Below, in pieces: positions 30,338 to 47,871 of a DNA stretch of 64,000 nucleotides. Source of the stretch: Vibrio cyclitrophicus (lineage in GTDB: Bacteria; Pseudomonadota; Gammaproteobacteria; Enterobacterales; Vibrionaceae); NCBI RefSeq assembly GCF_024347435.1, contig NZ_AP025480.1, positions 1,426,001 to 1,490,000 of the forward strand, given 5' to 3'. Numbering within the stretch: the stretch's first letter is position 1; each line of letters starts with the position of its first letter. The notes under the pieces were generated by a model. It searched no databases. It worked only from the letters and a program-made list of their open reading frames with translations, and was not told the origin of the DNA. The position numbers were made by a program, and so were the translations under genes.

Positions 30338-30428
30338 GGAAGCCATTTGTTCCCTTATTTGAATCATTGTTGACTGAACTGATTTGAAAGCATAAAAGCC
30401 AGCGATTATGCCTGTCTCTTATACACAA

Positions 30429-30458
30429 ATCCCTAAGCTATGCTTAGGGATTTTTTTT
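30429..30458 (+). terminator. IS-borne terminator inside the left end
   Basis: ATCCCTAAGC pairs with GCTTAGGGAT and is followed by eight T. It faces transcription entering the IS from the dnaQ-like gene. The same hairpin is present in copy 2. Confidence 0.75.
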
Positions 30459-30514
30459 GAACTATTTTGAGGTTCTATGATCTGATCATCTAAGCAATGA
30501 CAAGGATGATTATC

Positions 30515-31891
30515 ATGACCTATATAGAGCCAACCCTTTGGGCACAAAAACAGTTCGGTCAAGCCCACCTTAATGACCCAAGACGTACTCAAAGACTCGT
30601 TGCTCTCGCAGCTTCACTGGCCGAGCAACCTGGCGTACCTGTCTCGAAACTCATTATCTCACCGGCTGAAATGGAAGGGGCTTATCGCTTCATCCGTAAT
30701 GAGAAAATCAAAGCAGAAGATATCGCAGAGGCAGGGTTTTATGTCACTGCGCAAGAAGCGTTAAAGCAACAAACACTTCTTGCCTTAGAAGACACGACTT
30801 CTCTGAGTTACGCCCATCGCAGTATTCGAGATGAACTCGGACACTCCAATCAAGGCAATCGACATCGAGCGATGTTCGTACACTCTACCTTACTTTTTGC
30901 GCCCGACACTCAATCTGTGATTGGTTTAATTGAACAACAGCGCTGGACTCGTGATATAGAAAAGCGAGGTCAAAGACACCAGCATGCGACTCGACCATAC
31001 AAAGAGAAAGAAAGTTATAAGTGGGAACAAGCCTCTCGCTATGTCGCTGAGCGACTTGGCGATAAAATGTCGGATGTCATTTCGGTGTGCGATAGAGAAG
31101 CCGACCTCTTTGAATACCTCACTTACAAGCGAGAGCAACAACAAAGATTCCTCGTTCGTTCCATGCAAAGCCGCTGTATTGAAGAGCATGATAATCGTCT
31201 TTATAGCTATGCATCTACTCTGTCATCAGCCGGGGAGAAAGTGCTCGAAATACCGCAAAAAGGCGGTCGCAAAGCTCGCAAGGCTCATTTAGATATTAAA
31301 TATGCCCCCGTGACACTCAAGTCTCCTGCAAACAAGAAAGAGTTCGATAACATTCCGCTTTACTACGTGGGATGTATAGAACAAGGAGAGAATAACGATA
31401 AGCTAGCCTGGCACTTACTGACTTCGGAGCCGATAACGAGCAAAGAAGAGGCCCTCAAAATGGTCAGTTATTATGAGCGGCGCTGGCTAATAGAAGATTT
31501 TCATAAAGTCTGGAAAAGTGAAGGGACTGAAGTTGAGCAACTGAGAATGCAGAGTAAAGATAACTTAGAAAGGCTCAGCGTCATTTTAGCTTTTATCGCG
31601 ACTCGCTTACTCCAGTTGAGGTTCATGAATGAGTCCGATGAGTTATCTAAGACCAGTTGTGAGCAGGTATTAAAAGGCAAAGCATGGAAGTTAATGTGGC
31701 TAAAGTTGGAGAAAAAGCAGCTGCCGAAGGAAGCGCCCAATATATCATGGGCTTACAATGGTATTGCTCGGTTAGGTGGCTGGAAGAATACCAAGCGAAC
31801 GGGTCGCGCTTCCATAAAGACGTTATGGCAAGGATGGTTCAGGTTACAAACCATCCTTGAAGGGTATGAACTCGCTAAGTCTCTTGATTAA
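30515..31891 (+). CDS. IS4-family (IS50-type) DDE transposase, copy 1
   Basis: The product has 458 residues from the ATG reading MTYIEPTLW, with AAGG nine bases before it; two further in-frame ATGs lie up to 18 bases upstream. Catalytic residues: D93 in LALEDTTSLSY, D193 in SVCDREADLFEY, and E327 in the Y-R-E motif YYERRWLIEDFHKVWKSEG. These spacings closely match the Tn5 transposase. The protein binds the element ends and moves the IS by cut-and-paste through hairpin intermediates. Its translation is identical to copy 2, which implies recent movement. Confidence 0.93.
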   Translation: MTYIEPTLWAQKQFGQAHLNDPRRTQRLVALAASLAEQPGVPVSKLIISPAEMEGAYRFIRNEKIKAEDIAEAGFYVTAQEALKQQTLLALEDTTSLSYAHRSIRDELGHSNQGNRHRAMFVHSTLLFAPDTQSVIGLIEQQRWTRDIEKRGQRHQHATRPYKEKESYKWEQASRYVAERLGDKMSDVISVCDREADLFEYLTYKREQQQRFLVRSMQSRCIEEHDNRLYSYASTLSSAGEKVLEIPQKGGRKARKAHLDIKYAPVTLKSPANKKEFDNIPLYYVGCIEQGENNDKLAWHLLTSEPITSKEEALKMVSYYERRWLIEDFHKVWKSEGTEVEQLRMQSKDNLERLSVILAFIATRLLQLRFMNESDELSKTSCEQVLKGKAWKLMWLKLEKKQLPKEAPNISWAYNGIARLGGWKNTKRTGRASIKTLWQGWFRLQTILEGYELAKSLD

Positions 31892-31990
31892 CCAGACTTG
31901 TGATCAAGAGACAGGCGATTATGCTGGCTTTTGTTTGGGTCTTAGAAAATTAGGCAGTTATCATCTTAGACTTTTCATATAGGGAACAGC

Positions 31991-32704
31991 TTAAAAGCTG
32001 TAAGTAATACCTACACGGCTACGTAGTTGACGGCTTGAGTCACACACCGTATCACTTGTACATTGAACGTTGCCGAATTCTACGTATGGGCGCCAGCTCC
32101 AATCTGCTTCTTTGTAGCCGATCTTCATGTTGTAGTCCCACTCGTACTCGCCGTTGTTACCCATTTTCCATTCGTCATTAAAGAAATCTTCTTTGTAGTT
32201 TGCTTCAAAGCCAAACTGCCAAGCGTTCCAGTTGTAATCGATATTACCCGTAATTTTACCGGCATTTAATGAGTCGTGTTGCTTACCATCAAGGCCTGTT
32301 GAAGTTTTACCTGATGCATAATTGCGGAACTCATGGCGGTAACGAAGTTTCGTTGTTACACCTGAATCAAATTTGTATTGAACACGTACTTGCGGTTTGT
32401 AAGTTACCGCTTCATCACCGAAAGTAATCGGCATTGAAGTTGTTACACGCCAGTTGTTATCGAATTTGAAGTGGTAGCCGTATTCAAATTCGTTATCACC
32501 ACGTTGAAGTTCGCTTAGGTTACCCTTGTGCTTCATTTCTACGCCGTAGTAATGATTACCTGTGCTACCACCAATTTTCACTCGACCAGCCCATTCTTCC
32601 GAATCGTGCTTGTACTCTTCACGAAAATCTAGTGATGCCGCAGACACGCTGCCTGCAAAAAGAGTTGCTAATACTGCAAGCGTTACTTTATTCGTTTTTA
32701 TCAT
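31991..32704 (-). CDS. KdgM-family outer-membrane porin, second copy
   Basis: The product has 237 residues. The start MIKTNKVTLAVLA at 32704 gives a proper signal peptide cleaved after VSAA, before SLDFREEYK; the open frame upstream to 32821 lacks this. The chain is made of short amphipathic strands with many aromatic and basic residues and ends RSRVGITYSF, the outer-membrane assembly signal. The C-terminal region has a cysteine pair (CTSDTVC). It resembles the porin at 20269 in plan but is shorter. It likely passes oligoalginates or other oligouronates through the outer membrane. Operator-like sites lie upstream at 32990-33002 and 33212-33224. Confidence 0.9.
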   Translation of the reverse strand: MIKTNKVTLAVLATLFAGSVSAASLDFREEYKHDSEEWAGRVKIGGSTGNHYYGVEMKHKGNLSELQRGDNEFEYGYHFKFDNNWRVTTSMPITFGDEAVTYKPQVRVQYKFDSGVTTKLRYRHEFRNYASGKTSTGLDGKQHDSLNAGKITGNIDYNWNAWQFGFEANYKEDFFNDEWKMGNNGEYEWDYNMKIGYKEADWSWRPYVEFGNVQCTSDTVCDSSRQLRSRVGITYSF

Positions 32705-32989
32705 TTTATTGTTTCCACTGTATCTAAATAAAAAATGGTTAATAAAGGACCAACGTTGAGCCCTTTGTTGTATTGGGATTAAAGTTTTGGGTAAAGTCGT
32801 TCTACGTCGCGCTGAGCCCATATTTCCGCTAAGTTCTTTTTCATTGTGAACTTGCTAAAGTCTGTCTCAGTTGCCAGTTTCACCATTCAGGGTTTTCCCT
32901 AGCAACGCCGGCTTTTAGGTAAAGCGGAGTTATACGCTCAATGCGATGACGTTTGTTTTCGTGTGTAGGGTTACTCTTTATTTTGAATT

Positions 32990-33002
32990 AAAATACTACA
33001 AA
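32990..33002. promoter_or_regulatory. FadR-type half-operator
   Basis: AAAAT-ACT-ACAAA with a strong right half, about 290 bases upstream of the second porin. Confidence 0.4.
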
Positions 33003-33211
33003 TATGCTAGCGATTAGAATGGTGAGGTTCTGTGAATTAGATCGTGTTGTCATGATAAAACCACTATTTACAAAGGGTTACAAAGTTAGGGTTTAAATTA
33101 AACCTTTGTTTTTTTAATGGTTATTTTTCAGGTTATGTTGATTTTCTGAGTTTTTGTCTATCAATAAATGTGCGCTACAGCAAAAAATTGAATCTTTAGT
33201 TGTCATTTTTA

Positions 33212-33224
33212 TTTGTAATACATT
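33212..33224. promoter_or_regulatory. FadR-type operator
   Basis: TTTGT-AAT-ACATT is a near-palindrome with the GT-N3-AC core, about 510 bases upstream of the second porin. Confidence 0.45.
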
Positions 33225-33400
33225 ATTATTTACTAACTTTATGTAGTAACACATATCGTCAGAACGTTAAATAGATGCACATGCATCTGTATGGTTTTAG
33301 GTAGTGATTCTGTCGGTTAGTTTTAAGTGACTACCGACGTGAATGGATGAACTTATGGTTCATAGCTGCATTGGGATGATGGTTTTAAGGCTAAGGCTTT

Positions 33401-33477
33401 GTTTAAAAGCGAAGATAGTTTAAAAGCGAAGATAGTTTAAAAGCGAAGATAGTTTAAAAGCGAAGATAGTCTAAAAG
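33401..33477. repeat. 17-bp tandem repeat, four and a half copies
   Basis: The unit GTTTAAAAGCGAAGATA occurs four times exactly and a fifth time in part with one change. It is in non-coding DNA. Confidence 0.9.
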
Positions 33478-33698
33478 TTAACATACCTAAAAGTACGATG
33501 TATTTGCCGTGAGGGGATAAAAAGCCTCAATCAAAAAAGGTTTGAAGTGTAGTAGGCAAGGCAGTTACACAGCCTGCTATAGAGATCGGAGTTAGAACGA
33601 TTGGATATAGTCGCTCTAAACTGATGAAAAAGAAGAAATCGTTGAAGTGCTTGTAAGAGCATTTTGATTATTGCTCCCAACTATTCTAATTATAACTT

Positions 33699-33784
33699 CT
33701 GCTTTCCTTTAGAAAGGTAGGAGATGGTAGTGAAGATCTACCTTTGCGCTCATGTTGATACAGGCAACATGAGCGTTTTTTTTT
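33699..33784 (+). ncRNA. Candidate small RNA of about 85 nt
   Basis: A strong terminator (CGCTCATGTTG / CAACATGAGCG followed by nine T, 33747-33784) stands on the plus strand although no plus-strand gene precedes it within 1 kb. A promoter guess fits upstream: TTGATT at 33664, a 17-base spacer and TAATTA at 33687. The transcript would hold a first hairpin (AAAGGTAG / CTACCTTT, 33714-33745) and the terminator hairpin, a normal plan for an Hfq-bound RNA. No known family was recognised. Confidence 0.45.
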
Positions 33785-33931
33785 GCCTAAAATTTGTATT
33801 GATCGTTTGATCTACAGATACAGACTATCGATAAGAAGGGCACCCACTGATTCATTCAGTAACCGTGAATGATGTATAGAGCGATTAAGTTTTGAGGTTT
33901 ATGACCGCACGTTCAAGAGATGCGGTCTGTT

Positions 33932-35437
33932 CTACACCGATGTTGCGGAGGCGGCATTCTTTGAAGCGACCGTTACGTTAGCGAGTGTAAGGTGTTTAAT
34001 CGAACTTACGTTGTCAATGATTTCTGATGTAACATCGCTTTGTTCTTGCATTGCATTGGCCACTTCTAAACTGTTGTTTAGAATCGTTTCCATATCCTTG
34101 ATTACTGATGTGAGTCTTGAGTGCGCTTTTTCACAAGAGTTGACACTGCTATCGCCTTTTTCACAACAGTTTTGAATTGTATTAACAACCGTTTGGGTTT
34201 GGTCTTGAACCCCTTGAATAATATTGGAGATCTCTTCAGTAGAAAGCTGTGTTCTCCCTGCTAAGGTTCTCACTTCATCAGCCACTACTGCAAAACCGCG
34301 CCCTTGTTCTCCAGCACGAGCTGCTTCGATTGCTGCATTGAGAGCGAGGAGGTTAGTTTGCTCTGCAATGTCTTTAATGACTTCTAATACGGTATTGATT
34401 TTTTCTGAATGAACAGAGAGGCGATTTACTTCTTCGCTGGCGCTTACTAGGTCAGTCGAAAGAGTATTGATGGTGTCTCTGGTAAATGCGACGTCATTCA
34501 AGCCTTCATTAGCCGTTGCGAAACTGGTTTGTGCATTGGATGATGCGTTGTCACTATTTATCGCAACACTTTGGATATTACTGCCCATCTGGTTTATCGC
34601 GGTCGCAATGTTTTCTGTTTGTAGCTGTTGTTTGTTTAAGGCGCTTTCAACGTGCCTTCCGTCGTGTTGTAGCTGATTTGAAATATTACCTAGTTGTTGG
34701 ATAGATCCTTGTACTTGCCCAACAAGCTGACGAATATCTGACAGTACAATATTAAAAGCTTTCGCAATATCAGCAATTTCATCTGAACCGCTCTCTTCTG
34801 CCTTTACGGTAAAGTCGCGTTGTTGGGAGACCACAAGCATCACCGAGTTCAATGATGCAATTTTTTTCGCTACACGTGATGAAATACCAAATGAAAGTGC
34901 GAGAAGCATTACTGCTACGGTTATTAGGGAGCTAATAATGAAAGTGGTAATGGTTTGTTGAATCGACTCTACTTGTTCTTCCAGGCGGCGTTCAACAGCC
35001 GTGAATATCGAAATGATGTCTTCAAACAATGTTTTCATTTCTGATTTTAGCCCCGCCACTTGTGTTGGGTCTCGATCAATGGCGTTTATCATCAAAGAAA
35101 AATCTTTATTGTATTGTTTAACTTCCATTTTCAGTTTGTCTAACTCTGAAACGACAATGTCTGATTCATCAAGTAGAACAGAAAAACTTCCCATCAATTT
35201 CTGAAAGTTTGAGTATTCCTTGGTGAATACTGGCTGAAGTGATTGATCGTGGCTGATCAAAAATTCTAATTCTGTTCGATTAAGTTGCAGCATAGAGACT
35301 TCAAGCGACTTAACTTTGATCAGCGTTTTCTCTAACTTAATCAGTTTGAGGTTTGCCATTTCAGTGAATGATACAACAATCATCAGTGACAATATGGACA
35401 AACAAGTAAGGCTAAATAGGGAGGTTTTAATTTTCAT
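33932..35437 (-). CDS. Methyl-accepting chemotaxis protein with small periplasmic four-helix sensor
   Basis: The product has 501 residues. The start [10 protein letters not shown] at 35437 leads straight into the first membrane helix; a frame six codons longer has no merit. The periplasmic part (about 35-175) is helical and of four-helix-bundle size. A second membrane helix follows at about 180-200, then HAMP and the signalling domain with [20 protein letters not shown] at the tip. The C-terminus lacks a CheR-binding pentapeptide. The ligand is unknown; position upstream of the second symporter again suggests a nutrient in this locus, but nothing in the sequence proves it. Confidence 0.9.
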
Positions 35438-35782
35438 GGACGGGCACCAAAGCAATATGACTCAATAACGTATTTGAAATCGCGTTTCTCTCGTCTACGA
35501 GCTGCATAATGAGATCTGACTCGCAAGGTAAACGTTTGCTTACAATGTTTTAACAAAAGGCTGTTCGCAAGTTAAATATTATTTATTTTCAATATCTATT
35601 GATGATGCTTTTGTTACTAGCGGTGACTTTTAGTGATGAGTGAAATGAACAGTCGCGTGTTTGAAGGTACAACTTGCATTGGTCAGCGACGAAAATAATG
35701 CGTTTAAGAGGGTTTCGAAAGCAATAGGCGCTCACGCGTAGTGACATGAATGCCCATTGCTGTGGGTATCGTTGCGATAGCG
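35438..35782. other. Gap without a supported gene
   Basis: About 345 bases. A 71-codon minus-strand frame (35589-35804) overlaps the 3' end of the next gene and has no ribosome site or recognisable composition. Confidence 0.5.
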
Positions 35783-36391
35783 CTAACTTTGTGTAGGCAT
35801 CCATACCTGTTTAGATGTGATTTTGTGGCCTTTAAAGGTCAATTCTTCAACCTTATCTCCGTTTTGATTCCAACGAGTTAATGTCCCATTTGCAATTTTA
35901 CCATCATCAAATTTGGCTTGACTTGCCTTGTTACCATTTGGATAGTAATCCGTTACTAGCCCGTCTTGTTGTCCGTTACTGTATTTCGCAGTAAGGCTTT
36001 GTTCGCCATTTGGATACCATCGAGAGACATCACCCGATAATTTGTTATCGATATAATTGAGCTCTGTTTTTTTCTGCCCATTCGGGTACCAGGCCTCAGC
36101 TTTGCCCTGTAATTCACCCTTTTCGTAATTCACTTTAGAAGCGATCTGGCCATTTGGATACCAGTTGGTTTCTAACCCAAGCTCTAAGCCATCAGCAAAC
36201 TGAGCTTGAATGGCTATTTGGCCGTTATCGAATTTCTCTTCAAATTGCCCAGTAAATGGCTTTGAGTGGTTAACTTGATAAGCAACGCCTTTTCGCATCT
36301 GAAGATAATCAACAGCATCTTCTCGGGTGGCTGCGTAACTCATAGAAGACATCGTACTAAGAGCAATCAATATTGGGATGTATTTCTTCAT
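35783..36391 (-). CDS. Secreted MORN/YwqK-type repeat protein
   Basis: The product has 202 residues with a signal peptide cleaved near SYAA. From about 45 to the end it is made of repeats of about 22 residues built round Y-P-N-G-Q (WYPNGQIASKVNYEKGEL; WYPNGQKKTELNYIDNKL; WYPNGEQSLTAKYSNGQ; YYPNGNKASQAKFDDGK). This is the MORN-variant repeat of the YwqK family. Such repeats form a long beta sheet; their role in secreted bacterial proteins is unclear. Some database names call the family antitoxin-like, but no toxin partner is seen here. Confidence 0.85.
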   Translation of the reverse strand: MKKYIPILIALSTMSSMSYAATREDAVDYLQMRKGVAYQVNHSKPFTGQFEEKFDNGQIAIQAQFADGLELGLETNWYPNGQIASKVNYEKGELQGKAEAWYPNGQKKTELNYIDNKLSGDVSRWYPNGEQSLTAKYSNGQQDGLVTDYYPNGNKASQAKFDDGKIANGTLTRWNQNGDKVEELTFKGHKITSKQVWMPTQS

Positions 36392-36555
36392 AATGACACC
36401 TTTTTTATTGGACGGGGGAAAGTGTAATCAGTGTGTTAAAAGCATTTCACTTCCATGGATGACTGTCAGCAGCTATTACTGGTTTTCAAGTTTTCATTAT
36501 TGACTGTCTATTGAAGGGAACTTTTTCATACGTATTTGGACGTATGTATTGTATT

Positions 36556-36570
36556 ATTTGTAATACAAAT
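36556..36570. promoter_or_regulatory. FadR-type operator, perfect palindrome
   Basis: ATTTGT-AAT-ACAAAT, with a second overlapping half-site (ATTGT) just to the left. Confidence 0.7.
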
Positions 36571-36679
36571 GTGTTGGATTTAATCATTTTCAAAAATTAT
36601 ATTGAGTGTTTTTTCTTCGTTAGATTTGTTATTTTTCTTGTAACGATTGAATTCTTTTAATGACTGATTTTCATTTTTG

Positions 36680-36695
36680 TGTGATTTTATTCACA
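36680..36695. promoter_or_regulatory. CRP (cAMP receptor protein) site, perfect match
   Basis: TGTGA-TTTTAT-TCACA matches both conserved half-sites exactly. It lies about 240 bases before the second symporter and suggests catabolite control of the alginate genes. Confidence 0.65.
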
Positions 36696-36859
36696 TTTAA
36701 TTGGGGTTTTATAGAGTTTTAGACTGTCATATGGGGGGAGAGTGCCAGACTTTGCACTATGTTGATGAATTTCGCTCTTGTTCGATGCAACTTTGAACTC
36801 GATCACTTGTATGATTATTTGATGGTAATAGTCTAAGATCGCTGTCACGCATTTAAGTT

Positions 36860-36872
36860 ATTGTAGTACAAA
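36860..36872. promoter_or_regulatory. FadR-type operator before second symporter
   Basis: ATTGT-AGT-ACAAA, near-perfect palindrome, about 60 bases before the start codon, the same distance as in the first symporter gene. Confidence 0.7.
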
Positions 36873-36931
36873 TGTGGCTATCATCTATCTATAGTGCACC
36901 TAACAGAAAAACATAAATAAAAGGTCTAAAG

Positions 36932-38707
36932 ATGGAACTCAATACCCTGATAGTAGGCATCTACTTCCTATTCTTAATTGCGATAGGGTGGATGTTCAGA
37001 ACATTTACAAGTACAACTAGCGATTACTTCCGTGGGGGAGGTAACATGCTGTGGTGGATGGTAGGTGCAACAGCATTTATGACCCAGTTCAGTGCGTGGA
37101 CATTTACTGGTGCGGCAGGTAAAGCCTTTACTGATGGTTTTGCAGTAGCGATTATCTTCATTGCTAACGCCTTCGGTTACCTAATGAACTACCTTTACTT
37201 CGCTCCGAAGTTCCGCCAACTGCGTGTGGTTACGGTAATTGAAGCAATTCGTATGCGATTTGGTAAAGTGAACGAGCAAGTGTTTACTTGGTCGGGCATG
37301 CCAAACAGTGTTATCTCTGCTGGTATCTGGTTGAACGGTCTTGCGATCATCGCATCTGGCATCTTTGGCTTTGATATGACAACGACAATCATCCTAACTG
37401 GTCTGGTTGTACTGGTGATGTCAGTAACGGGTGGCTCATGGGCAGTAATCGCATCTGATTTCATGCAGATGGTTATTATCATGGCGGTAACGGTGACGTG
37501 TGCCGTGGTTGCGATTTACCACGGTGGCGGCGTTACGCAGATCATTAGTGATTTCCCAACAGATTCATTCATCACAGGTGACAACCTTAACTACCTAAGC
37601 ATCTTTAGTATCTGGGCAGTCTTCATCTTCTTGAAGCAATTCAGCATTACCAACAACATGTTGAACTCTTACCGTTACCTTGCGGCTAAAGACTCTAACA
37701 ATGCACGTAAAGCCGCACTGCTTGCTTGTATCCTTATGACGCTTGGTCCAATCATTTGGTTTATGCCATCTTGGTTTATGGCGGGTCAAGGTGTTGATTT
37801 AGCGGCTGCTTACCCAGAAGCAGGCAGCAAATCTGCTGATTTCGCTTACCTATACTTCGTTCAAGAGTACATGCCTGCCGGTATGGTTGGTCTTCTGATC
37901 GCCGCTATGTTTGCTGCGACCATGTCTTCAATGGATTCTGGTCTAAACCGTAACTCAGGTATCTTTGTTAAGAACTTCTACGAGCCGATTCTTCGTCCTC
38001 AAGCGACAGAGAAAGAGCTGATGGTTGTTTCTAAGCTAACGTCTACGTTCTTCGGTATCGCTATCATCTTGGTTGCACTGTTCATCAACTCTCTTAAAGG
38101 ATTGAGCCTTTTCGATACGATGATGTATGTGGGCGCACTGATCGGCTTCCCTATGACAATTCCTGCATTCTGTGGCTTCTTTATCCGTAAAACACCGGAT
38201 TGGGCTGGTTGGGGTACGCTAGTTGTTGGTGGTGTGGTTTCTTACTTCGTAGGTTTCGTTATCACAGCGGATATGGTTCAAAACTGGTTCGGTCTGAACG
38301 AGCTAACTGGCCGTGAGTGGGCTGACCTTAAAGTGGCTATCGGCCTTATTGGCCACATCGTATTTACTGCTGGCTTCTTCGTTCTATCAACACTGTTCTA
38401 CAAGCCTCTTGCTGAGCACCGTGAGAAAGACGTAGACAAGTTCTTCAACAACCTAGCGACACCATTAGTTGCTGAAAGTAACGAGCAGAAGAAACTGGAT
38501 AATAAGCAACGTCGTATGTTGGGTTCACTTATCGCAGTGGCGGGTGTGGGCGTAATGACAATGTTCGTACTGCCGAACCCTATGTGGGGACGCATGGTGT
38601 TTGTTCTGTGTGGTGCGATTGTATTCTCTGTTGGTTTGCTTCTGGTGAAAGCGGTTGATGACAAAGTCGAGCAACAAAACGACGAAGTTACCTCTGCTGA
38701 AAGCTAA
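36932..38707 (+). CDS. Sodium:solute symporter (SSS family), second paralogue
   Basis: The product has 591 residues, about 14 membrane helices. The first 60 residues are practically the same as in the symporter at 5368, and most of the chain aligns without gaps apart from a short loop near 205. It is therefore a duplicated Toa-type importer. Differences gather in the loop after TCAVVAIYHGGGV and in the C-terminal tail, where substrate preference or regulation could differ. A hairpin rather than a full terminator separates it from the PL6 lyase gene, so the two are probably co-transcribed. Confidence 0.93.
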   Translation: MELNTLIVGIYFLFLIAIGWMFRTFTSTTSDYFRGGGNMLWWMVGATAFMTQFSAWTFTGAAGKAFTDGFAVAIIFIANAFGYLMNYLYFAPKFRQLRVVTVIEAIRMRFGKVNEQVFTWSGMPNSVISAGIWLNGLAIIASGIFGFDMTTTIILTGLVVLVMSVTGGSWAVIASDFMQMVIIMAVTVTCAVVAIYHGGGVTQIISDFPTDSFITGDNLNYLSIFSIWAVFIFLKQFSITNNMLNSYRYLAAKDSNNARKAALLACILMTLGPIIWFMPSWFMAGQGVDLAAAYPEAGSKSADFAYLYFVQEYMPAGMVGLLIAAMFAATMSSMDSGLNRNSGIFVKNFYEPILRPQATEKELMVVSKLTSTFFGIAIILVALFINSLKGLSLFDTMMYVGALIGFPMTIPAFCGFFIRKTPDWAGWGTLVVGGVVSYFVGFVITADMVQNWFGLNELTGREWADLKVAIGLIGHIVFTAGFFVLSTLFYKPLAEHREKDVDKFFNNLATPLVAESNEQKKLDNKQRRMLGSLIAVAGVGVMTMFVLPNPMWGRMVFVLCGAIVFSVGLLLVKAVDDKVEQQNDEVTSAES

Positions 38708-38758
38708 TGCCTACAAGATTCTAAAAAATAGATACTCAAACATAGAGTGTTAATACAT

Positions 38759-38780: not shown

Positions 38781-38817
38781 TTAATTTGATAATCCAAGAT
38801 TCAATGTGAGATGTACG

Positions 38818-40434
38818 ATGAAAAAAAAATTAATTTCGGTAAGTATTATTAGCGCGTTCACGTTAGCTTTCGCAACGGGCTGTACAAGCCAAGATACAGC
38901 GGCACCAGTGATCGACGTGGCTGAACAAGCAGCGCCTGCTATTAGCGAAATCGATCGTAGTTACTTATTGAGTAGTGATCGCTTAAACGAGGTTGATGGG
39001 AATACGTTGGCCGTTGCTTCAGACGAACAAGTGGCTGCGCTTAAAGCACAATTTGAAAATTTAAAAGATGGCGACGAAGTCGTTATCCCTAGTGGTAAAT
39101 ACGCGAATTTAGGTCAAGTGACTATTACCGCGAACGATATCACTATTAGAGCTGAGCAAGCGGGTTCGGCTTGGATTACTGGCCTTATTCAGTTTGAACT
39201 TAAAGGTGATGACGTCACACTAGATGGTTTAGTGTTTACTGAAGGTGGTCCAAACGAACGATTTGGTGCTGTGCGTATGATGGGTAATGGCAACACGCTT
39301 AAAAACTCAACGTTCTACTACTTCAACCACGATTACACATACGAACCAGACGATCGCCGCTCTGAATATCCAAAATACCTTTGGGTTTCGTTATGGGGCA
39401 AAGATGGCAAGGTAATCAATAACCGTTTCGAAGGTAAACAAAAACGCGGGACGCTGATTGGTGTACAAAAAGATGACACATCAGATAATCACCTGATCGC
39501 GAATAACATCTTCATGGATCAGAAACCGAACCAATTTAATGAGTTCGACATCAAAGAAGCGATTCGTTATAACGGCAACAGCTGGGAAGTCATCCGCATC
39601 GGTGATTCTAAGGCTTCACAATGGGATTCGAGCTCTAAGTTTGTTAACAACCTAATGATTGATATGGATGGCGAGCGTGAACTTATTTCTATTAAGTCGG
39701 GTGACAACACGATTTCAGGCAACACGATTTTTCAAAGTACTGCTCTAATTTCACTTCGTCACGGTAAAGGAAATAAAGTTAAAAACAACATGATCCTTGG
39801 TAACGGAAAGCGTCTAACTGGCGGTGTTCGTATTTATGATGAAGACCATGTTATCCGCAACAACTACATTGCTAACACGCGTGGTCGTGATGGTCTAATT
39901 GAAGGTAATGCTGACTTACGCGGCGGTATTGTTATCAATACTGGCATCATCGATGTTGCAAATGGCGAACAGTTAGATCAGTCGGTCAAAGGAAAAGAGC
40001 TTAACAAGCAATGGACACCTAAAAATATCACGATCGAGAATAACTCTCTTGTGGATACAGAGTGGGGCATTGTGTATGGCAACCAAAGCCATCGTGTAAG
40101 CCTGTTCAATAACGCAGAAGTGGAAAACATCTATGCAGGTGTTGATGTCGCGTTTAGCAACAACGTGGTTGATAATTCATTATCACCTGACTTTGTAAGT
40201 GTACGCGCAACAAACGACTTCCCATTAGTTGATGCTACATACACTGATGAAACGTACGTAGGTCAAGTGACGGATTCTGAGCAGATCTCAAGCTACTCAG
40301 TCGAGTTGCCGGCAGTGACTATTACTAACGGCATGAATGCTTACCAAGGCGAAGGTGCCGATGTGTCGAAACTTTCCGTTGTGACGGCTGAAACGGCGGG
40401 TCCGGACTACGTGCTTGAGAATACAACGAAGTAG
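38818..40434 (+). CDS. PL6 alginate lyase, lipoprotein
   Basis: The product has 538 residues; the ATG of MKKKLIS begins a signal sequence ending in FATGC (lipoprotein cysteine), preferred over an ATG four codons earlier. The rest is a right-handed parallel beta-helix: GDEVVIPSGKYANLGQVTIT opens it as in chondroitinase B-like enzymes. The catalytic pair is visible as K293 (ISIKSGDNTISGN) and R314 (SLRHGKGN). PL6 lyases cut MG or G-rich alginate; a single beta-helix of this length is the PL6 subfamily seen in V. splendidus. It would work on the cell surface or in the periplasm and feed the symporter encoded just before it. Confidence 0.9.
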   Translation: MKKKLISVSIISAFTLAFATGCTSQDTAAPVIDVAEQAAPAISEIDRSYLLSSDRLNEVDGNTLAVASDEQVAALKAQFENLKDGDEVVIPSGKYANLGQVTITANDITIRAEQAGSAWITGLIQFELKGDDVTLDGLVFTEGGPNERFGAVRMMGNGNTLKNSTFYYFNHDYTYEPDDRRSEYPKYLWVSLWGKDGKVINNRFEGKQKRGTLIGVQKDDTSDNHLIANNIFMDQKPNQFNEFDIKEAIRYNGNSWEVIRIGDSKASQWDSSSKFVNNLMIDMDGERELISIKSGDNTISGNTIFQSTALISLRHGKGNKVKNNMILGNGKRLTGGVRIYDEDHVIRNNYIANTRGRDGLIEGNADLRGGIVINTGIIDVANGEQLDQSVKGKELNKQWTPKNITIENNSLVDTEWGIVYGNQSHRVSLFNNAEVENIYAGVDVAFSNNVVDNSLSPDFVSVRATNDFPLVDATYTDETYVGQVTDSEQISSYSVELPAVTITNGMNAYQGEGADVSKLSVVTAETAGPDYVLENTTK

Positions 40435-40513
40435 CTTATTGCTTAACGTTTTAATGCTTAACGGTCTGGGCTATCAAATAAATTCAAGATAGCTGTATTA
40501 GCCGTTAACATCT

Positions 40514-40548
40514 AAAAAGCCTCAACGGGTAATATCTGTTGAGGCTTT
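40514..40548. terminator. Bidirectional terminator between PL6 lyase and msrA
   Basis: AAAGCCTCAAC pairs with GTTGAGGCTTT with T-rich flanks on both strands. Confidence 0.8.
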
Positions 40549-40588
40549 ATCGATCTTAGGTCGTGACCATCTCAATCTTACGTCGTGA

Positions 40589-41086
40589 CTACTGTGATTT
40601 ATACTTATGCAGCAGATCCCAAGGGATGTGACACAAATGATGATCTTCTGGGAATTGACTTAGGTGGTTTTGGTGGATGTCGTCACTGGCGACATAATGT
40701 ATTAAAGGCAGTATCTCTAGAGCGATTCGGTCTGCATCATCACGCGACGCAATATAGCGCTTGGCTTCGGCAAGATGTCCATCGCTGAGACTGTAAATGC
40801 CAGTACGATACTTTTCTCCTACATCGATGCCTTGTTTGTTCACGCTGTATGGGTCAATAATCTCAAACAGGTGCTTCATCAGAATCGTTACCGACGTGAT
40901 ACTCGGGTCAAAATCGATTTGTACGCATTCAGCGTAACCATCATAGGTATTTGGGGTATTATCATTTTGCGTTATTCGAGAAGTGCCATTGGCACGGCCA
41001 GCTTCGGTGCTGATGACTCCAGGAACGTACTTAATAAACTCTTGTACACCCCATAAGCAGCCACCCGCTAAATAAATTTGTTCCAT
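40589..41086 (-). CDS. msrA: Peptide methionine sulfoxide reductase MsrA
   Basis: The product has 165 residues. The active-site motif is GGCLWG (usually GCFWG) with the catalytic cysteine at residue 10, and the conserved QIDFDPSI and DPYSVNKQGIDVGEKYRTGI segments follow. It reduces the S-form of methionine sulfoxide in proteins. AAGGTAAGT gives a good ribosome site. The short form without an extended C-terminus matches MsrA types with few resolving cysteines; the only other cysteines are near residues 54 and 154. Confidence 0.92.
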   Translation of the reverse strand: MEQIYLAGGCLWGVQEFIKYVPGVISTEAGRANGTSRITQNDNTPNTYDGYAECVQIDFDPSITSVTILMKHLFEIIDPYSVNKQGIDVGEKYRTGIYSLSDGHLAEAKRYIASRDDADRIALEILPLIHYVASDDIHQNHLSQFPEDHHLCHIPWDLLHKYKSQ

Positions 41087-41304
41087 ACTTACCTTTTACT
41101 TCTCTGTATTTGTTGTTCGTTCGATACGTGAATCAATGTGGTGATACACGTTCTTGAAAAAGCGCACACATAAAAACAAGTGTTTAGGTATTGTAAACCA
41201 GTGCGACTGAACAAACATAAGTCTAATAGGATTTGTGATTATATAAGTCAGTATTGCATTGTCATCAACTCGAATTTCATTATCAAGTGAGCGTTAGCTT
41301 AACC

Positions 41305-42420
41305 ATGTTTGATCAAATAAAAGATTTCATCAATCCCAGTAAGAATCCAGATCTCACTCAGGCTCAGGAGTATCAGCGTAAACATCTACCGACGCTGTGG
41401 CTTTTGGGCAAAACGGGGGCTGGAAAATCATCGTTCATTCAAGCCGTGACTGGCAATTCTTCCGTTGAGGTGGGTAACGGTTTTGCTCCTTGCACGATGA
41501 CTGCAATGTCATATGAATTTCCTCAAGACAAGCCAGTAATGCGGTTTCTTGATACTCGTGGTTTGGGAGAGGCCGATTATGATCCTAAAGAAGATTTAGA
41601 AGAGATTGGTCAAGCGGGCAATGCGCTAGTCGTAGTGATGAAAGCCGATGAACCCGAACAATCATCTGTGCTTTCTGCCCTGAAACAGGTTAAAAAGCAG
41701 AAGAAGATTGAGCATTTACTTCTCGTTCATACTGCTGTGCTGTCCTCTAAAGAGACCGATCGCACAAGGCAAATTCGATTCAACACCAATCAAGTTGAAA
41801 AGGTTTGGGGTAAGGACTGTTCTTCGGTGGCCGTCGATTTTGAAACTGATGACGGCTCTACTTATAACAGCAGTCCCATCTATAACTATGACACCCTGAT
41901 AGAACAGTTGACGACAATACTCCCTGTGATAGGGATGATGGTGATAGACAAAGAACACTCGACTCAAGAAGAAGCGAATTTTGATCAAGTCGAAAACGAA
42001 GTGCTTTGGTATGCAGGAAGCGCTGCCGCGAGTGACCTGATTCCAGGTGTTGGTTTGGTGTCTGTGCCTGCGATTCAAGCGAAAATGCTTCATAGCTTGG
42101 CCAATCAATATGGGGTCGAATGGAATAAGAGAGTCTTTAGTGAATTGATAGGAACTCTGGGAAGCAGCTTCGCTTTGCAATACGGAATGAAACTGGGCAC
42201 TCGACAGTTGATAAAGCTGATTCCAGTTTATGGTCAAACTGTGGGCGCGGTTGCTGCAGCAGCAATGAGTTTCGGCACTTCTTATGGTTTAGGTCGCGCG
42301 GCGTGTTTTTACTTCTATCATAAGAACAAAGGTGAAGAAGTCTCTGAACAAGATATGCAGAAGATCTACAAAGAATCCCTGAAAAAAGGAAAGGCGGCGT
42401 CGGGCTATGAAGAAAATTAG
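41305..42420 (+). CDS. GTPase with C-terminal DUF697-like membrane domain, first of an overlapping pair
   Basis: The product has 371 residues from the ATG MFDQIKDF (the frame is open 17 codons further upstream without a better site). A TRAFAC-type GTPase domain covers about 28-215: P-loop GKTGAGKSS at 35-43 and the switch II motif DTRGLGE from 83. The G4 motif is not a clear NKxD. The C-terminal part (about 240-345) is hydrophobic with AASDLIPGVGLVSVPAIQAK, as in DUF697 domains. The next GTPase gene overlaps by 14 bases, so both are made together. The pair recalls YcjX/YcjF-like or immunity-type GTPases, but I do not recognise the exact family. Confidence 0.85.
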   Translation: MFDQIKDFINPSKNPDLTQAQEYQRKHLPTLWLLGKTGAGKSSFIQAVTGNSSVEVGNGFAPCTMTAMSYEFPQDKPVMRFLDTRGLGEADYDPKEDLEEIGQAGNALVVVMKADEPEQSSVLSALKQVKKQKKIEHLLLVHTAVLSSKETDRTRQIRFNTNQVEKVWGKDCSSVAVDFETDDGSTYNSSPIYNYDTLIEQLTTILPVIGMMVIDKEHSTQEEANFDQVENEVLWYAGSAAASDLIPGVGLVSVPAIQAKMLHSLANQYGVEWNKRVFSELIGTLGSSFALQYGMKLGTRQLIKLIPVYGQTVGAVAAAAMSFGTSYGLGRAACFYFYHKNKGEEVSEQDMQKIYKESLKKGKAASGYEEN

Positions 42421-44071
42421 AAACCTATTTCGATTACTGGCGGTGCTATCGAGTGGCCGCTGGGGCATTACCCTGATTTCGGCTATCTTCCCAAGCATTA
42501 TCATGATGGGTTTTGGTCTCTTCTTGGCGATTAAATATGGTTACCTACTGGAAATGTCCATTGCGATTGCGGGGAGTACTTTACTATTCTCTGTTCCTCT
42601 ATACATTTCTCGTCGCTCTTCGCACAAATCGACCTATAGCGATTCTTCTTTGAATAAAGAGAGCGACGATGAACCTCAAGTAGAATCATTGCTTAAGAAG
42701 ACAGACATCGACGATGCGCTTGTTAAAGCTTCTATTGATTGGTCTCAAAAAGAGCTGTCGATCTGGAATGAATCGAAACTTCACGTGCGGCAACAATTAA
42801 TGATCGACATAGAGTGGGGCAATCTAGACCAAACCGGTTTAGAAGTTCTTGAGTTTGTCGCCACGAAGTTTGACAAGAAATCACTCGACTTCTCTATTCC
42901 AGAAGGACTGAAGCTGTTCGAAGAGGTGAGCCGACGCTATAAGTTGGTGGTGCGAGAACATATACCAGGTATTGAATATCTCAAGGTTTCCTATATCAAA
43001 GCGGGCTACGAAGCCTATGACAAATATGGCGAGCTAGGACATAAGATCATTAAAGCTGCCATTTGGGGTAATCATCTTAAAAACCTGTATTTGAACCCCC
43101 TGAAAGTCATTTCGGATTTAGGCCGTGAACAGGCGACTTCTTCAATGACAAGAGGTGTGGTTGAGGACATGCAATATGCTGCCAAGCAAGCCTTGTTAGA
43201 TGAGGTGGCCGCTGTGGCGATTGATCTCTATAGTGGACGTTTTAGCATTGAAGATGAAGCACTAAGAGCGTCGGATGTTTCTGAAATAGATGAACAGCGC
43301 TTTGCACCAGAATTAGAGCCAGTAAGAATTGTGCTAGTAGGGCAAACAAGCTCTGGGAAATCCTCACTGATTAATGCGCTTAAGCAAGAGTTGGTAGCTG
43401 AAGTGGATGTACTGCCATCAACCGACACTTCAACCGTATACAACGCGTTTGTCGATGACAATGATGTTAGAGTTGTTGATCTTCAAGGGCTGGATGGCAA
43501 TGCCAAAACCGAAGCTCTGATGCTTAAAGAGATGACCCAAGCCGATGTTGTACTTTGGGTTCTTAAAGCCAATCAATCGGCTCGTGAACTGGATAAGCAA
43601 TTGAAGGGCAAGTTTGATGCTTTCTATGACGATCCTAAAAACATCTCACGTAAGAAGCCAATCGTTGTATCGGTTGTGAATCAGGTCGATCGATTAAAGC
43701 CTGTTGATGAGTGGCAGCCGCCTTATGATTTGGGTAATCCAACATCGCCCAAAGCGAAGATCATTGCTCAAGCACTCGAATACAACCATATATTGCTGCA
43801 GTCTGATATCGTGTTACCGCTCGCTATTGCGCCAGAAAAGACGATTTTTGGTTTAGAAGCACTCAAGCAGATGGTAATCGAAGGCATAGCTGATGCTAAT
43901 AATGTGCAAAGAAACCGCCAACGTTTGGAGGCAATGAAACGGGGAACGTCGGTTAAAGGCCAACTGAACAAAGTAGTGAACGCTGGTAAGAAGGTCACAC
44001 CAAGTGTTTTGAAAGCGGCGACACCAAAGCTCGCTGAAATGGCCATTAAGCAAGCTGTTAAGAAAAAGTAG
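42407..44071 (+). CDS. Membrane-anchored GTPase, second of an overlapping pair
   Basis: The product has 554 residues. Two N-terminal membrane helices (about 20-42 and 46-64) are followed by a long helical region (about 90-290) and a GTPase domain (about 305-490). G1 is GQTSSGKSS at 312-320, G3 is DLQGLD (a variant of DxxG), and G4 is NQVD near 425. The C-terminus is basic (KQAVKKK). The gene starts inside the last codons of the first GTPase. Large membrane-bound GTPases of this kind occur in cell-envelope and defence roles; neither is shown here. Confidence 0.83.
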   Translation: MKKIRNLFRLLAVLSSGRWGITLISAIFPSIIMMGFGLFLAIKYGYLLEMSIAIAGSTLLFSVPLYISRRSSHKSTYSDSSLNKESDDEPQVESLLKKTDIDDALVKASIDWSQKELSIWNESKLHVRQQLMIDIEWGNLDQTGLEVLEFVATKFDKKSLDFSIPEGLKLFEEVSRRYKLVVREHIPGIEYLKVSYIKAGYEAYDKYGELGHKIIKAAIWGNHLKNLYLNPLKVISDLGREQATSSMTRGVVEDMQYAAKQALLDEVAAVAIDLYSGRFSIEDEALRASDVSEIDEQRFAPELEPVRIVLVGQTSSGKSSLINALKQELVAEVDVLPSTDTSTVYNAFVDDNDVRVVDLQGLDGNAKTEALMLKEMTQADVVLWVLKANQSARELDKQLKGKFDAFYDDPKNISRKKPIVVSVVNQVDRLKPVDEWQPPYDLGNPTSPKAKIIAQALEYNHILLQSDIVLPLAIAPEKTIFGLEALKQMVIEGIADANNVQRNRQRLEAMKRGTSVKGQLNKVVNAGKKVTPSVLKAATPKLAEMAIKQAVKKK

Positions 44072-44375
44072 TCCTCGATAGTTTCTATAATGTTGTTCTG
44101 GTGAGGTTTAGTTCTCATCAGAACTTAGTGTTCTAGATCTTCGTTCTATATTAGCGAAGCATTAAATTTAAAAAATAGCTGCTATTATTAAATATCTCGT
44201 TGAACTAGTTTAATAGTCTATGAACCTCTGGTATTCGAAGTTTACATAACACGCTATCAGATTTAATTGTCATTCTAAATATTGATCACATTTATACTTA
44301 TCCAAGCTTTATTTATAAAACCATTGCACTATATTTAAATTTCGTTTCATCTTGATTTCAACGTAGGGATATATT
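44072..44375. other. Intergenic region with the tna promoter
   Basis: About 300 bases. A hairpin (GTTCTGGTGAG/CTCATCAGAAC, 44093-44126) after the GTPase gene may end that operon. The remainder is AT-rich and should hold the tnaC-tnaA promoter; a half CRP-like site TGATCACATTT lies near 44283. Confidence 0.5.
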
Positions 44376-44474
44376 GTGAACTTGTATCTGAAATGGCAAT
44401 CAACAACATGGCTGACCTTGTTAGCTTGGTATACTTTAGACCACCAGCTCTCTTTTCACCTTTCTTCAGAGTAG
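44376..44474 (+). CDS. tnaC: Tryptophanase leader peptide TnaC
   Basis: A GTG-started frame of 32 residues with a good AGGGAT ribosome site lies about 315 bases before tnaA. It has three tryptophans. The segment AWYTLD corresponds to the KWFNID of E. coli TnaC, with the essential Trp (W18) and Asp (D22) five positions apart. In the E. coli system tryptophan makes the ribosome stall at the TnaC stop and blocks Rho, letting tnaA be transcribed. The E. coli Pro just before the stop is absent here: the peptide goes on as HQLSFHLSSE after the Asp. Confidence 0.8.
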   Translation: MNLYLKWQSTTWLTLLAWYTLDHQLSFHLSSE

Positions 44475-44790
44475 TACCCTCTAGGCGTCACGCGCCAGCA
44501 GAGCCCTTGAGTTTTGCCAATCCTGTTAATTTTTTCTTTAAGAAATGTCGTAGTTTATGCGTCAGCTATTTTTGCTTTTGTGCATACAACTCTTTATCTC
44601 TAGTTAATTATTAATTGGAACCTAATCAATACGTATTGATTAAATAATCTATTTATAGCTATTAATTATTATTGTAATTATCACGAGAATGGTTGTGCGT
44701 GAAATTAAATTAATAGTGATGACTCGTGACATCTAAAAATAATGAATTTGGCTTTCTTCTTATAAGTTGAATTTGTTGAATGGGACTATT
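44475..44790 (+). promoter_or_regulatory. tna leader between tnaC and tnaA
   Basis: About 315 bases of transcribed spacer. It begins with a pyrimidine-rich stretch (CCTCTAGGCGTCACGCGCCA near 44478-44497) of the kind used for Rho loading in E. coli tna. It then becomes AT-rich. No tRNA-like or terminator hairpin was seen. Confidence 0.5.
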
Positions 44791-46260
44791 ATGGAAAACT
44801 TCAAACATCTACCAGAACCGTTTCGTATTCGCGTTGTAGAGCCAGTAAAAAGAACAACTCGCGCCTATCGTGAACAAGCCATTGTCGAAGCGGGCATGAA
44901 CCCATTTCTACTTGACAGTGACGATGTATTTATCGATTTGCTGACCGACAGTGGCACCGGTTCTATAACACAACGTATGCAAGCGGCGATGTTAATGGGC
45001 GATGAAGCCTACAGTGGCAGCCGCAGTTACTATGCGTTGGCGAATGCAGTAAAGGATATCTTCGGCTATGAGCTGACTATTCCTACACACCAAGGACGCG
45101 GTGCAGAGCAGATCTATATTCCTGTTCTTATTAAGAAGCGTGAAATGGAAAAAGGCCTCGACCGTAGCAAAATGGTCGCCTTGTCTAACTACTTTTTCGA
45201 TACCACGCAAGGTCATACTCAAGTGAATTGTTGTGTCGCGAGGAACGTTTATACCAAAGAAGCATTTGATACTTCAGTGAACGCGGATTTCAAAGGCAAC
45301 TTCGATGTTGTTAAATTGGAAGAGGCGATCTTAGAGGCGGGCGCTGCCAATGTTCCTTATATCGTGAGCACGATTACATGCAATTCGGCTGGTGGACAAC
45401 CAGTATCTATTGCCAACCTGAAAGCTGTGTATGAAATAGCTCAGAAGTACGGCATTCCTGTGATTATGGATTCTGCACGTTACGCTGAAAATGCTTATTT
45501 CATTCAGCAACGTGAAGTCGGTTATCAAGATTGGACTATCGAACAAATCACTCGTGAGTCATACAAATACGCGGATGGCTTAGCCATGTCAGCTAAGAAA
45601 GACGCGATGGTACAGATGGGTGGGTTGTTGTGCTTTAAAGACGACTCTTTCATGGATGTGTACACAGAGTGTCGAACCTTGTGTGTCGTGCAAGAGGGCT
45701 TCCCAACTTATGGTGGCTTAGAGGGTGGTGCGATGGAGCGCCTTGCGGTCGGCCTTTATGACGGCATGCGTCAAGATTGGTTGGAGTATCGCATCGGTCA
45801 GGTTCAATACTTGGTCGATGGCTTAGAAGCTATAGGCATAGTCTGCCAACAAGCGGGTGGTCATGCTGCATTTGTCGACGCAGGTAAATTGCTTCCACAC
45901 ATCCCGGCTGGTCAGTTCCCCGCACATGCTTTGGCGTGTGAACTGTACAAAGTAGCAGGCATTAGAGCTGTTGAGATTGGTTCTCTATTGCAAGGCCGTG
46001 ATCCGACTACGGGAGAACAACATCCGTGTCCTGCTGAGTTATTGCGTCTGACAATTCCTAGAGCGACCTACACGCAAACTCATATGGACTTCATCATCGA
46101 AGCGTTTGAAAAAGTGAAAGAGAATGCAGGGCAAGTTAAGGGGCTTGATTTTACTTATGAGCCACCAGTGTTAAGGCACTTTACTGCCCGCCTAAAAGAG
46201 GTTGAAACAAATACTAAACAATCTATAAAAAATAGTAAGCTAGAGCTCGAAGAAGCTTAG
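44791..46260 (+). CDS. tnaA: Tryptophanase
   Basis: The product has 489 residues; the start is the ATG of [20 protein letters not shown], the normal TnaA N-terminus. The PLP lysine lies in [14 protein letters not shown] and the family segments [20 protein letters not shown] and [14 protein letters not shown] are intact. It splits L-tryptophan into indole, pyruvate and ammonia in the cytoplasm. It is controlled through TnaC. No tnaB/mtr tryptophan permease follows; the terminator after it has been split by an insertion sequence. Confidence 0.96.
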
Positions 46261-46301
46261 AAAAACGAGCGAATAGTCACCAATACAAAGGCTCCCGTGG
46301 G

Positions 46302-47804
46302 CTGTCTCTTGATCACAAGTCTGGTTAATCAAGAGACTTAGCGAGTTCATACCCTTCAAGGATGGTTTGTAACCTGAACCATCCTTGCCATAACGTCTTT
46401 ATGGAAGCGCGACCCGTTCGCTTGGTATTCTTCCAGCCACCTAACCGAGCAATACCATTGTAAGCCCATGATATATTGGGCGCTTCCTTCGGCAGCTGCT
46501 TTTTCTCCAACTTTAGCCACATTAACTTCCATGCTTTGCCTTTTAATACCTGCTCACAACTGGTCTTAGATAACTCATCGGACTCATTCATGAACCTCAA
46601 CTGGAGTAAGCGAGTCGCGATAAAAGCTAAAATGACGCTGAGCCTTTCTAAGTTATCTTTACTCTGCATTCTCAGTTGCTCAACTTCAGTCCCTTCACTT
46701 TTCCAGACTTTATGAAAATCTTCTATTAGCCAGCGCCGCTCATAATAACTGACCATTTTGAGGGCCTCTTCTTTGCTCGTTATCGGCTCCGAAGTCAGTA
46801 AGTGCCAGGCTAGCTTATCGTTATTCTCTCCTTGTTCTATACATCCCACGTAGTAAAGCGGAATGTTATCGAACTCTTTCTTGTTTGCAGGAGACTTGAG
46901 TGTCACGGGGGCATATTTAATATCTAAATGAGCCTTGCGAGCTTTGCGACCGCCTTTTTGCGGTATTTCGAGCACTTTCTCCCCGGCTGATGACAGAGTA
47001 GATGCATAGCTATAAAGACGATTATCATGCTCTTCAATACAGCGGCTTTGCATGGAACGAACGAGGAATCTTTGTTGTTGCTCTCGCTTGTAAGTGAGGT
47101 ATTCAAAGAGGTCGGCTTCTCTATCGCACACCGAAATGACATCCGACATTTTATCGCCAAGTCGCTCAGCGACATAGCGAGAGGCTTGTTCCCACTTATA
47201 ACTTTCTTTCTCTTTGTATGGTCGAGTCGCATGCTGGTGTCTTTGACCTCGCTTTTCTATATCACGAGTCCAGCGCTGTTGTTCAATTAAACCAATCACA
47301 GATTGAGTGTCGGGCGCAAAAAGTAAGGTAGAGTGTACGAACATCGCTCGATGTCGATTGCCTTGATTGGAGTGTCCGAGTTCATCTCGAATACTGCGAT
47401 GGGCGTAACTCAGAGAAGTCGTGTCTTCTAAGGCAAGAAGTGTTTGTTGCTTTAACGCTTCTTGCGCAGTGACATAAAACCCTGCCTCTGCGATATCTTC
47501 TGCTTTGATTTTCTCATTACGGATGAAGCGATAAGCCCCTTCCATTTCAGCCGGTGAGATAATGAGTTTCGAGACAGGTACGCCAGGTTGCTCGGCCAGT
47601 GAAGCTGCGAGAGCAACGAGTCTTTGAGTACGTCTTGGGTCATTAAGGTGGGCTTGACCGAACTGTTTTTGTGCCCAAAGGGTTGGCTCTATATAGGTCA
47701 TGATAATCATCCTTGTCATTGCTTAGATGATCAGATCATAGAACCTCAAAATAGTTCAAAAAAAATCCCTAAGCATAGCTTAGGGATTTGTGTATAAGAG
47801 ACAG
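46302..47804 (-). mobile_element. IS4-family IS50-type insertion sequence, copy 2 (1503 bp)
   Basis: It has the same length and ends as copy 1 but opposite orientation. The target duplication is CCCGTGGG (8 bp) at 46294-46301 and 47805-47812. The transposase translation is identical to copy 1. Confidence 0.93.
46325..47701 (-). CDS. IS4-family (IS50-type) DDE transposase, copy 2
   Basis: The product is the same 458 residues as in copy 1, with D93, D193 and E327 all intact, so both copies should be able to move. The hairpin near the other end (47761-47787) faces away from tnaA; transcription leaving tnaA enters this copy from its right end, which lacks that hairpin, so antisense read-through into the transposase is possible. 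Confidence 0.93.
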   Translation of the reverse strand: MTYIEPTLWAQKQFGQAHLNDPRRTQRLVALAASLAEQPGVPVSKLIISPAEMEGAYRFIRNEKIKAEDIAEAGFYVTAQEALKQQTLLALEDTTSLSYAHRSIRDELGHSNQGNRHRAMFVHSTLLFAPDTQSVIGLIEQQRWTRDIEKRGQRHQHATRPYKEKESYKWEQASRYVAERLGDKMSDVISVCDREADLFEYLTYKREQQQRFLVRSMQSRCIEEHDNRLYSYASTLSSAGEKVLEIPQKGGRKARKAHLDIKYAPVTLKSPANKKEFDNIPLYYVGCIEQGENNDKLAWHLLTSEPITSKEEALKMVSYYERRWLIEDFHKVWKSEGTEVEQLRMQSKDNLERLSVILAFIATRLLQLRFMNESDELSKTSCEQVLKGKAWKLMWLKLEKKQLPKEAPNISWAYNGIARLGGWKNTKRTGRASIKTLWQGWFRLQTILEGYELAKSLD

Positions 47805-47871
47805 CCCGTGGGAGCCTTTTCTTGTTGTTGAGTTACTCTTAACAAATCAACCTAAATCGCTAAGTTTATGG

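Follow-up and report, generated by a model that had tools for sequence, protein, structure and literature searches.

An insertion sequence (IS) of the IS50 type is present in two copies in a stretch of 64,000 nucleotides from Vibrio cyclitrophicus (NZ_AP025480.1, positions 1,426,001 to 1,490,000; hereafter the window), and both copies are inserted on the axis of terminator-like hairpins, as an earlier note on this DNA had claimed. All eight full copies in the source genome are placed likewise, and the sites used by the wider lineage share a half-site motif, a cutting register anchored in that motif and a target duplication that lengthens with the distance between the two half-sites. On the strength of these sequences we consider it probable that a dimer of the transposase selects inverted half-sites, AAAG(G/C)C(A/T)|(G/C)C, about one helical turn apart in duplex DNA. 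Joining of each transposon end would always take place 4 bases into the A-run of its own half-site, and the spacing of the half-sites, not a fixed stagger, would set the length of the duplication (8 to 12 bp).

Target sites of the two window copies

The two copies and their targets comprise the following features (positions are those of the window; rc, reverse complement).

30412..31914, + strand: IS copy 1, IS50-type, 1,503 bp, ends CTGTCTCTTATACAC and rc CTGTCTCTTGATCAC
30497..31891, + strand: transposase of copy 1, Tn5-like, 464 amino acids
30427..30453, + strand: terminator-like hairpin at the left end of copy 1, followed by a T-run
30402..30411: target duplication of copy 1, left, GCGATTATGC, 10 bp
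31915..31924: target duplication of copy 1, right, GCGATTATGC, 10 bp
30395..30401, + strand: left target half-site of copy 1, AAAGCCA
31925..31931, - strand: right target half-site of copy 1, rc AAAGCCA
46302..47804, - strand: IS copy 2, 1,503 bp, 100% identical to copy 1
46325..47719, - strand: transposase of copy 2
47763..47789, - strand: terminator-like hairpin at the left end of copy 2
46294..46301: target duplication of copy 2, left, CCCGTGGG, 8 bp
47805..47812: target duplication of copy 2, right, CCCGTGGG, 8 bp
46287..46293, + strand: left target half-site of copy 2, AAAGGCT
47813..47819, - strand: right target half-site of copy 2, rc AAAGGCT

The copies are in opposite orientation, with a mutual complementarity of 100%. 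Restoration of the empty target at site 1 gave a stem of AAAAGCCAGC and GCTGGCTTTT with a 6-base loop; at site 2 (AAAGGCTCCC and GGGAGCCTTT) a 10-bp stem leaves a 2-base loop, and RNA folding gave 9 bp with a 4-base loop. At both sites the hairpin axis is the centre of the duplication, and the folding z values of the restored sequences were -4.5 (site 1) and -3.4 (site 2). A generic terminator scan of positions 29000-48900 found 22 candidates against 16.2 +/- 4.5 expected from shuffles; given this small excess, our use of 'terminator' rests on sequence form (A-tract, G/C stem, T-tract) and folding.

The site-1 hairpin is uninterrupted in four relatives that lack the IS at this position (L262-L265). 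The site-2 hairpin is perfect in one such relative (L247) and has one mismatch in another (L249), the orthologous positions in L248 and L250 being occupied by other hairpins and that in L251 by a poorer one. Orthologues of both window sites are occupied in genome G019 in the same orientation (L211 and the tandem pair L083), and these insertions may be inherited. L083 (475-3488), at the orthologue of window site 2, consists of two IS copies in direct tandem with one common 8-bp duplication. In G041 the loop of the site-1 hairpin orthologue harbours an element with two overlapping frames that is IS3-like by eye only (L266).

The source genome (G000; 5.28 Mb, 3 contigs) contains eight full IS copies and one remnant. 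The eight full copies have perfect duplications centred on a hairpin axis, with lengths of 8, 9, 10 (five copies) and 11 bp; at least 7 of the 8 flanking pairs match at all of them, and the arms read AAAGSC..GSCTTT (S, G or C) with slight departures in L006 and L008. Mis-set ends were rejected as the source of the variable lengths, since these eight copies share 1,503-bp boundaries (reported identity 100%). To judge by such identical copies, the lineage has been active recently. The remnant, of 665 bp and 92% identity, lies on the third contig (L009, 1501-2165), and its right flank is AGTATCGGCTGGCCCTTT.

Motif, register and spacing across the lineage

At the level of the genus, a protein search found relatives in 35 of 227 genomes; the corresponding counts were 34 of 329 for the family, 15 of 394 in a sample of the order and 4 of 369 in a sample of the class. 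E-value limits differed between searches, the source genome was included each time and the genome sets overlap. A lineage set of 96 copies was chosen by protein identity (about 64% or more) once the first sites had been seen, with elements of 61-66% identity in G186, G170, G1020, G989 and G1000 kept outside it and reported apart. Repeated records were dropped from the counts, as were copies running off a contig and truncated ones (e.g. L009, L226, L239 and L240), and draft genomes G049, G094, G106, G176 and G189, in which the copies end at contig ends, were left uncounted. A perfect duplication was sought from 7 to 15 bp and found in 82 of the 96 copies. After the tandem pair L083 had been dropped and orthologous sites merged, 74 non-orthologous sites remained, or 73 without a Pseudoalteromonas copy of 45% identity (L052). 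The merging removed six members of orthologous pairs. One such pair, L170/L204, may represent independent insertions, its duplications differing by a single base; L211 and L003 were counted as one site.

Duplications at the 74 sites were 8 bp (n = 13), 9 bp (n = 16), 10 bp (n = 35), 11 bp (n = 8) or 12 bp (n = 2) long. At 69 sites at least 6 of the 8 base pairs directly outside the duplication match, a degree of pairing reached, with a spacer of 10, by 0.57% of window positions. This rules out chance palindromes and agrees with the earlier note, which had judged two independent hairpin insertions improbable by chance. The pairing is also in strict register, as only 2 or 3 of the 74 sites keep at least 6 pairs following a shift by one base.

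The half-site consensus given above was pooled from 148 half-sites, with counts of A 140, A 145, A 140, G 142, G or C 147 and C 142 at successive positions. Register was counted in the 66 of 74 sites with an AAA run on both sides; 128 of these 132 half-sites were cut exactly 4 bases into the A-run, and the length of the duplication equalled the spacing between A-run and T-run minus 8 (slope 0.97, r = 0.957). A constant cut offset together with a length that tracks spacing indicates that the register is anchored to each arm, and the same relation rules out a fixed stagger about the axis. The note's suggestion that departures from 9 bp stem from the symmetry of the target is strongly supported by this relation. 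AAAGSC was present on both arms in 56 of the 74 used sites by comparison with 26 of 152 A/T-tract hairpins in 461 kb of the source genome (p = 1e-17). A hairpin of any sequence as a sufficient target is ruled out by this arm motif and by the spacing limits described below. Of the proposal that targets are chosen by hairpin or palindromic structure, the choice of a palindrome has strong support, and the recognition of hairpin structure itself is made somewhat less likely by the half-site motif and the use of spacings 8-12 only.

The 14 lineage copies that lack a perfect duplication have an in-register half-site (at least 5 of 6 letters) in 27 of 28 flanks versus 6.9% of sampled window positions, and look like recombined or mutated copies. 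Four further loci (L225:401-458, L231:401-459, L234:401-459 and L236:401-457) are near-perfect palindromes of 57-59 bp, in which two IS left ends stand back to back around the IS hairpin; they are flanked by hairpin-like sequence with no common duplication and are perhaps products of template switching or deletion.

Duplex half-sites and hairpin structure

Strict half-site pairs in the source genome numbered 53 at spacings of 8-12, 56 at 13-24 and 8 at 3-7, with 0, 4 and 3, respectively, in reversed-pattern controls. Among the pairs listed, 46 of 50 at spacings of 8-12 and 36 of 50 at 13-24 were well paired. None of the 74 used sites had a spacing of 13 or more, although 36 of the 82 paired sites listed (~44%) lie in the range 13-24; use blind to spacing would give this result with a probability of about 3e-19, or 2e-9 when only sites with (G/C)C inside are counted. 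Within 8-12, a spacing of 10 is the commonest among used sites, and the distribution departs from that of the available pairs (p = 5e-6; p = 0.009 when (G/C)C is required inside). These figures are approximate, availability having been taken from one genome and use from many. Because only spacings of 8-12 are used though wider pairs are about as frequent, reading of duplex half-sites by two subunits is favoured. Since the half-site pairs of the source genome at spacings of 8-12 are, among those listed, nearly all hairpins of terminator form, an element that reads them would in effect home to terminator-like sites at gene ends.

The strongest alternative is recognition of the hairpin or cruciform itself, in which extruded stem-loops would be bound and each end would attack the 5' arm of one of the two hairpins at a set distance from its base, so that the length of the duplication would match that of the hairpin top. 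A cruciform model drawn for IS1272 in the accessible part of PMC5678879 is able to yield such a stem-loop duplication. Near-perfect arm pairing at the lineage sites is consistent with this mechanism, as is the choice of palindromes by relatives with other arms (ACCA in G186, CCC in G195, CCCCTC in G240) and duplications of up to 14 bp. It sits poorly with the strong sequence motif inside the arms, with the confinement of spacing to 8-12 and its peak at 10 despite the supply of paired sites at 13-24, and with half-sites that lack a good stem at some sites (L187 in the lineage; L178 and L179 in G1020). We therefore regard it as unlikely: the data can be explained without it and speak somewhat against it.

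Several observations weigh against duplex half-site reading. Half-site pairs at spacings of 8-12 are nearly always hairpins, so that the two mechanisms are largely confounded. At half-site scores of at least 14, pairing was found in 68 of 70 used sites versus 18 of 28 in the background (p = 4e-5), and at scores of at least 17 in 67 of 69 versus 12 of 15 (p = 0.04); at scores of at least 20 the counts were 59 of 61 and 6 of 6. The range from 8 to 17, in which many background sites are unpaired, contains only three used sites, and the higher scores of used sites account for part of the difference. This score-matched comparison leans towards pairing having a role of its own, unless those higher scores explain all of it, and is not decisive. 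In G186 (61% identity) a duplication was present in 8 of 10 copies and measured 9, 10, 13 or 14 bp, reaching spacings wider than one turn. In G1020 (61-62%) it was present in 5 of 7 copies, with looser pairing, and was 9 bp in every case, indicating that flexible spacing is not universal.

Two further explanations are very improbable. The first is survivorship, in which insertion would be near random, as with Tn5, and copies would persist only in harmless terminators at gene ends. In keeping with this, the nearest long open frame to the left ends 22-533 bases from each of the eight genome sites and that to the right lies 40-266 bases away, with six of the eight sites between convergent frames (frames were defined from stop to stop, not as annotated genes). 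As a sole cause survivorship is refuted, since fitness effects cannot account for a 4-base register, for a half-site motif or for a spacing window. The second, to which we likewise give almost no weight, is that a transposase that reads no DNA is brought in by RNA polymerase, or by a termination factor, during a pause at terminators; it would account for the terminator form of the sites, but neither for the enrichment of AAAGSC arms over other A/T-tract hairpins nor for the symmetrical cutting of both strands about the axis.

On a broader picture our judgement is evenly balanced: in a DDE transposase each active site would be placed by its own target half-site and the stagger read from the target (8 to 12 bp, 14 in a relative), and a Tn5-type element would thereby have become specialised on terminators while carrying a replacement terminator, making insertion near neutral for the host. 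Tn5-type transposases, on which tagmentation is based, commonly serve as the example of insertion that is near random and has a fixed stagger. A natural lineage of this type with strict target choice and a variable stagger gives direct access to the way in which target DNA is gripped and cut, may point towards insertion directed at terminators, and suggests that an IS may use gene ends as safe sites while supplying its own terminator.

The left-end hairpin, relatives and known systems

Bases 16-42 of the IS form a 12-pair hairpin followed by a T-run. This hairpin is conserved in 17 of 18 left ends, and 6 of its 12 pairs show changes on both sides that preserve pairing. It would probably stop read-through into the transposase gene and probably replace termination for the neighbour that it faces, this hairpin and the target hairpins being predicted terminators. 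With the exception of L004, the genome sites (7 of 8) have the left end turned towards the 3' end of a frame, a proportion that convergent pairs give by default and that is therefore no test of orientation.

The hairpin is missing from G028/G134, G240, G429, G448, G580, G229 and G985, and none of these was seen in an A-tract terminator among the few sites available. Against a strict association, it is present in G122 and G041 although four of five G122 sites and the sole G041 site are not A-tract terminators; the link between the left-end hairpin and terminator targeting is thus suggestive. In the best tree the hairpin-bearing elements and G028 form one group (99/99 support), in which G028, with neither hairpin nor terminator sites, stands beside G195 and G041 (98/95), suggesting that G028 lost both traits jointly. 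A single clade of hairpin-bearing elements with G028 kept outside was not rejected (p-AU 0.06), in a test limited by long branches.

Target choice among the relatives was varied. All eight copies fetched from G195 (54-56% identity) are inserted in terminator-like hairpins whose arms are of the CCC type, and their duplications range from 8 to 12 bp. REP-like palindromes (after repetitive extragenic palindromes) are the targets of G240 (45%; duplication in 3 of 4 copies) and, less clearly, of G448 and G429 (43-44%). Four of five G122 copies are in a repeated C-rich element and one is in a hairpin. For G985 (43%), duplications of 9 and 10 bp were found in 2 of 5 copies, at which 1 and 4 of the 8 outer pairs match. 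In G028/G134 (51%) all four copies have 9-bp duplications with 3 or 4 of 8 outer pairs; the pattern named in the earlier note as contrary to its proposal, mostly non-palindromic targets with 9-bp duplications, was looked for and thus holds at these four sites, and is absent from the lineage. In this part of the subgroup palindromes are a common but not a universal choice, and arm sequence varies by lineage. The G122 copies L113, L114, L116 and L117 share the same motif of the C-rich element, which may be a mobile repeat that carries the IS.

The window element resembles IS50/Tn5 of the IS4 family in its homologous transposase, its DDE and YREK motifs and its CTGTCTCTT ends. Homology to the Tn5 transposase is full-length (phmmer, 5.6e-80), with D99, D199 and E333 assigned from motifs and Y(2)R(3)E(6)K at 326. 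Tn5 itself makes 9-bp duplications and is loose in its choice of target. The window lineage differs in its duplications of 8-12 bp (9 bp at 16 of 74 sites), its strict half-sites and the terminator-like hairpin at its left end. A preferred 9-bp target sequence for Tn5 is mentioned in the accessible part of PMC1525189. The element belongs to the IS50 subgroup by its Tn5-like DDE transposase with Y(2)R(3)E(6)K, its 5'-CT ends with inverted termini, and its duplication of about one helical turn (8-12 bp, mode 10), the last being a character of the subgroup according to the part of PMC2266710 available. The nearest named element seen was ISVa18 (so called in the annotation of NZ_CP053815.1), with 88% DNA identity over 1,503 bp; the name was not found in the literature searched.

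The nearest precedents are IS1272 and palindrome-targeting elements of the IS4 family. IS1272/TnSha1 (IS1182 family) targets hairpins, several of them terminators confirmed by RNA-seq (PMC4923244; also PMC5678879, each in its accessible sections), and the window lineage is similar in targeting hairpins of terminator form. Unlike the window lineage, IS1272/TnSha1 removes part of the hairpin by a blunt cut and leaves no target duplication, and no primary sequence specificity is reported for it; in the window lineage 82 of 96 copies duplicate their target perfectly, and the transposase is Tn5-like and not of the IS1182 family. ISRm22, also of the IS4 family, has its nine copies in palindromic repeats (PMC1525189) and is placed in subgroup IS4Sa (PMC2266710), according to the accessible parts of both papers. 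The window element is likewise an IS4-family member in palindromes. It is unlike elements whose target is a repeated REP sequence in that it uses diverse terminator-like sites: the 74 sites, grouped by shared flank words, differ, and REP-like targets were seen only in distant relatives. IS231A and IS186 (IS4 family) use palindromic G/C half-sites with variable duplication length, apparently not tied to terminators, and are similar to the window lineage in both the half-sites and the variable length. Group IIC introns also home to intrinsic terminators, but these are retroelements that insert beside the hairpin without duplication. In the accessible text of PMC2266710 the specificity of IS231A is only cited, and the word 'terminator' was not found. 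No report of terminator targeting by an IS50-type element was recognised in the literature searched, which spans few subscription papers.

An Rfam scan of positions 28000-50000 gave no match, nor did the phage collection searched. Between the two IS copies, at 33401-33477, is a tandem array of 4.5 copies of the 17-bp unit GTTTAAAAGCGAAGATA.

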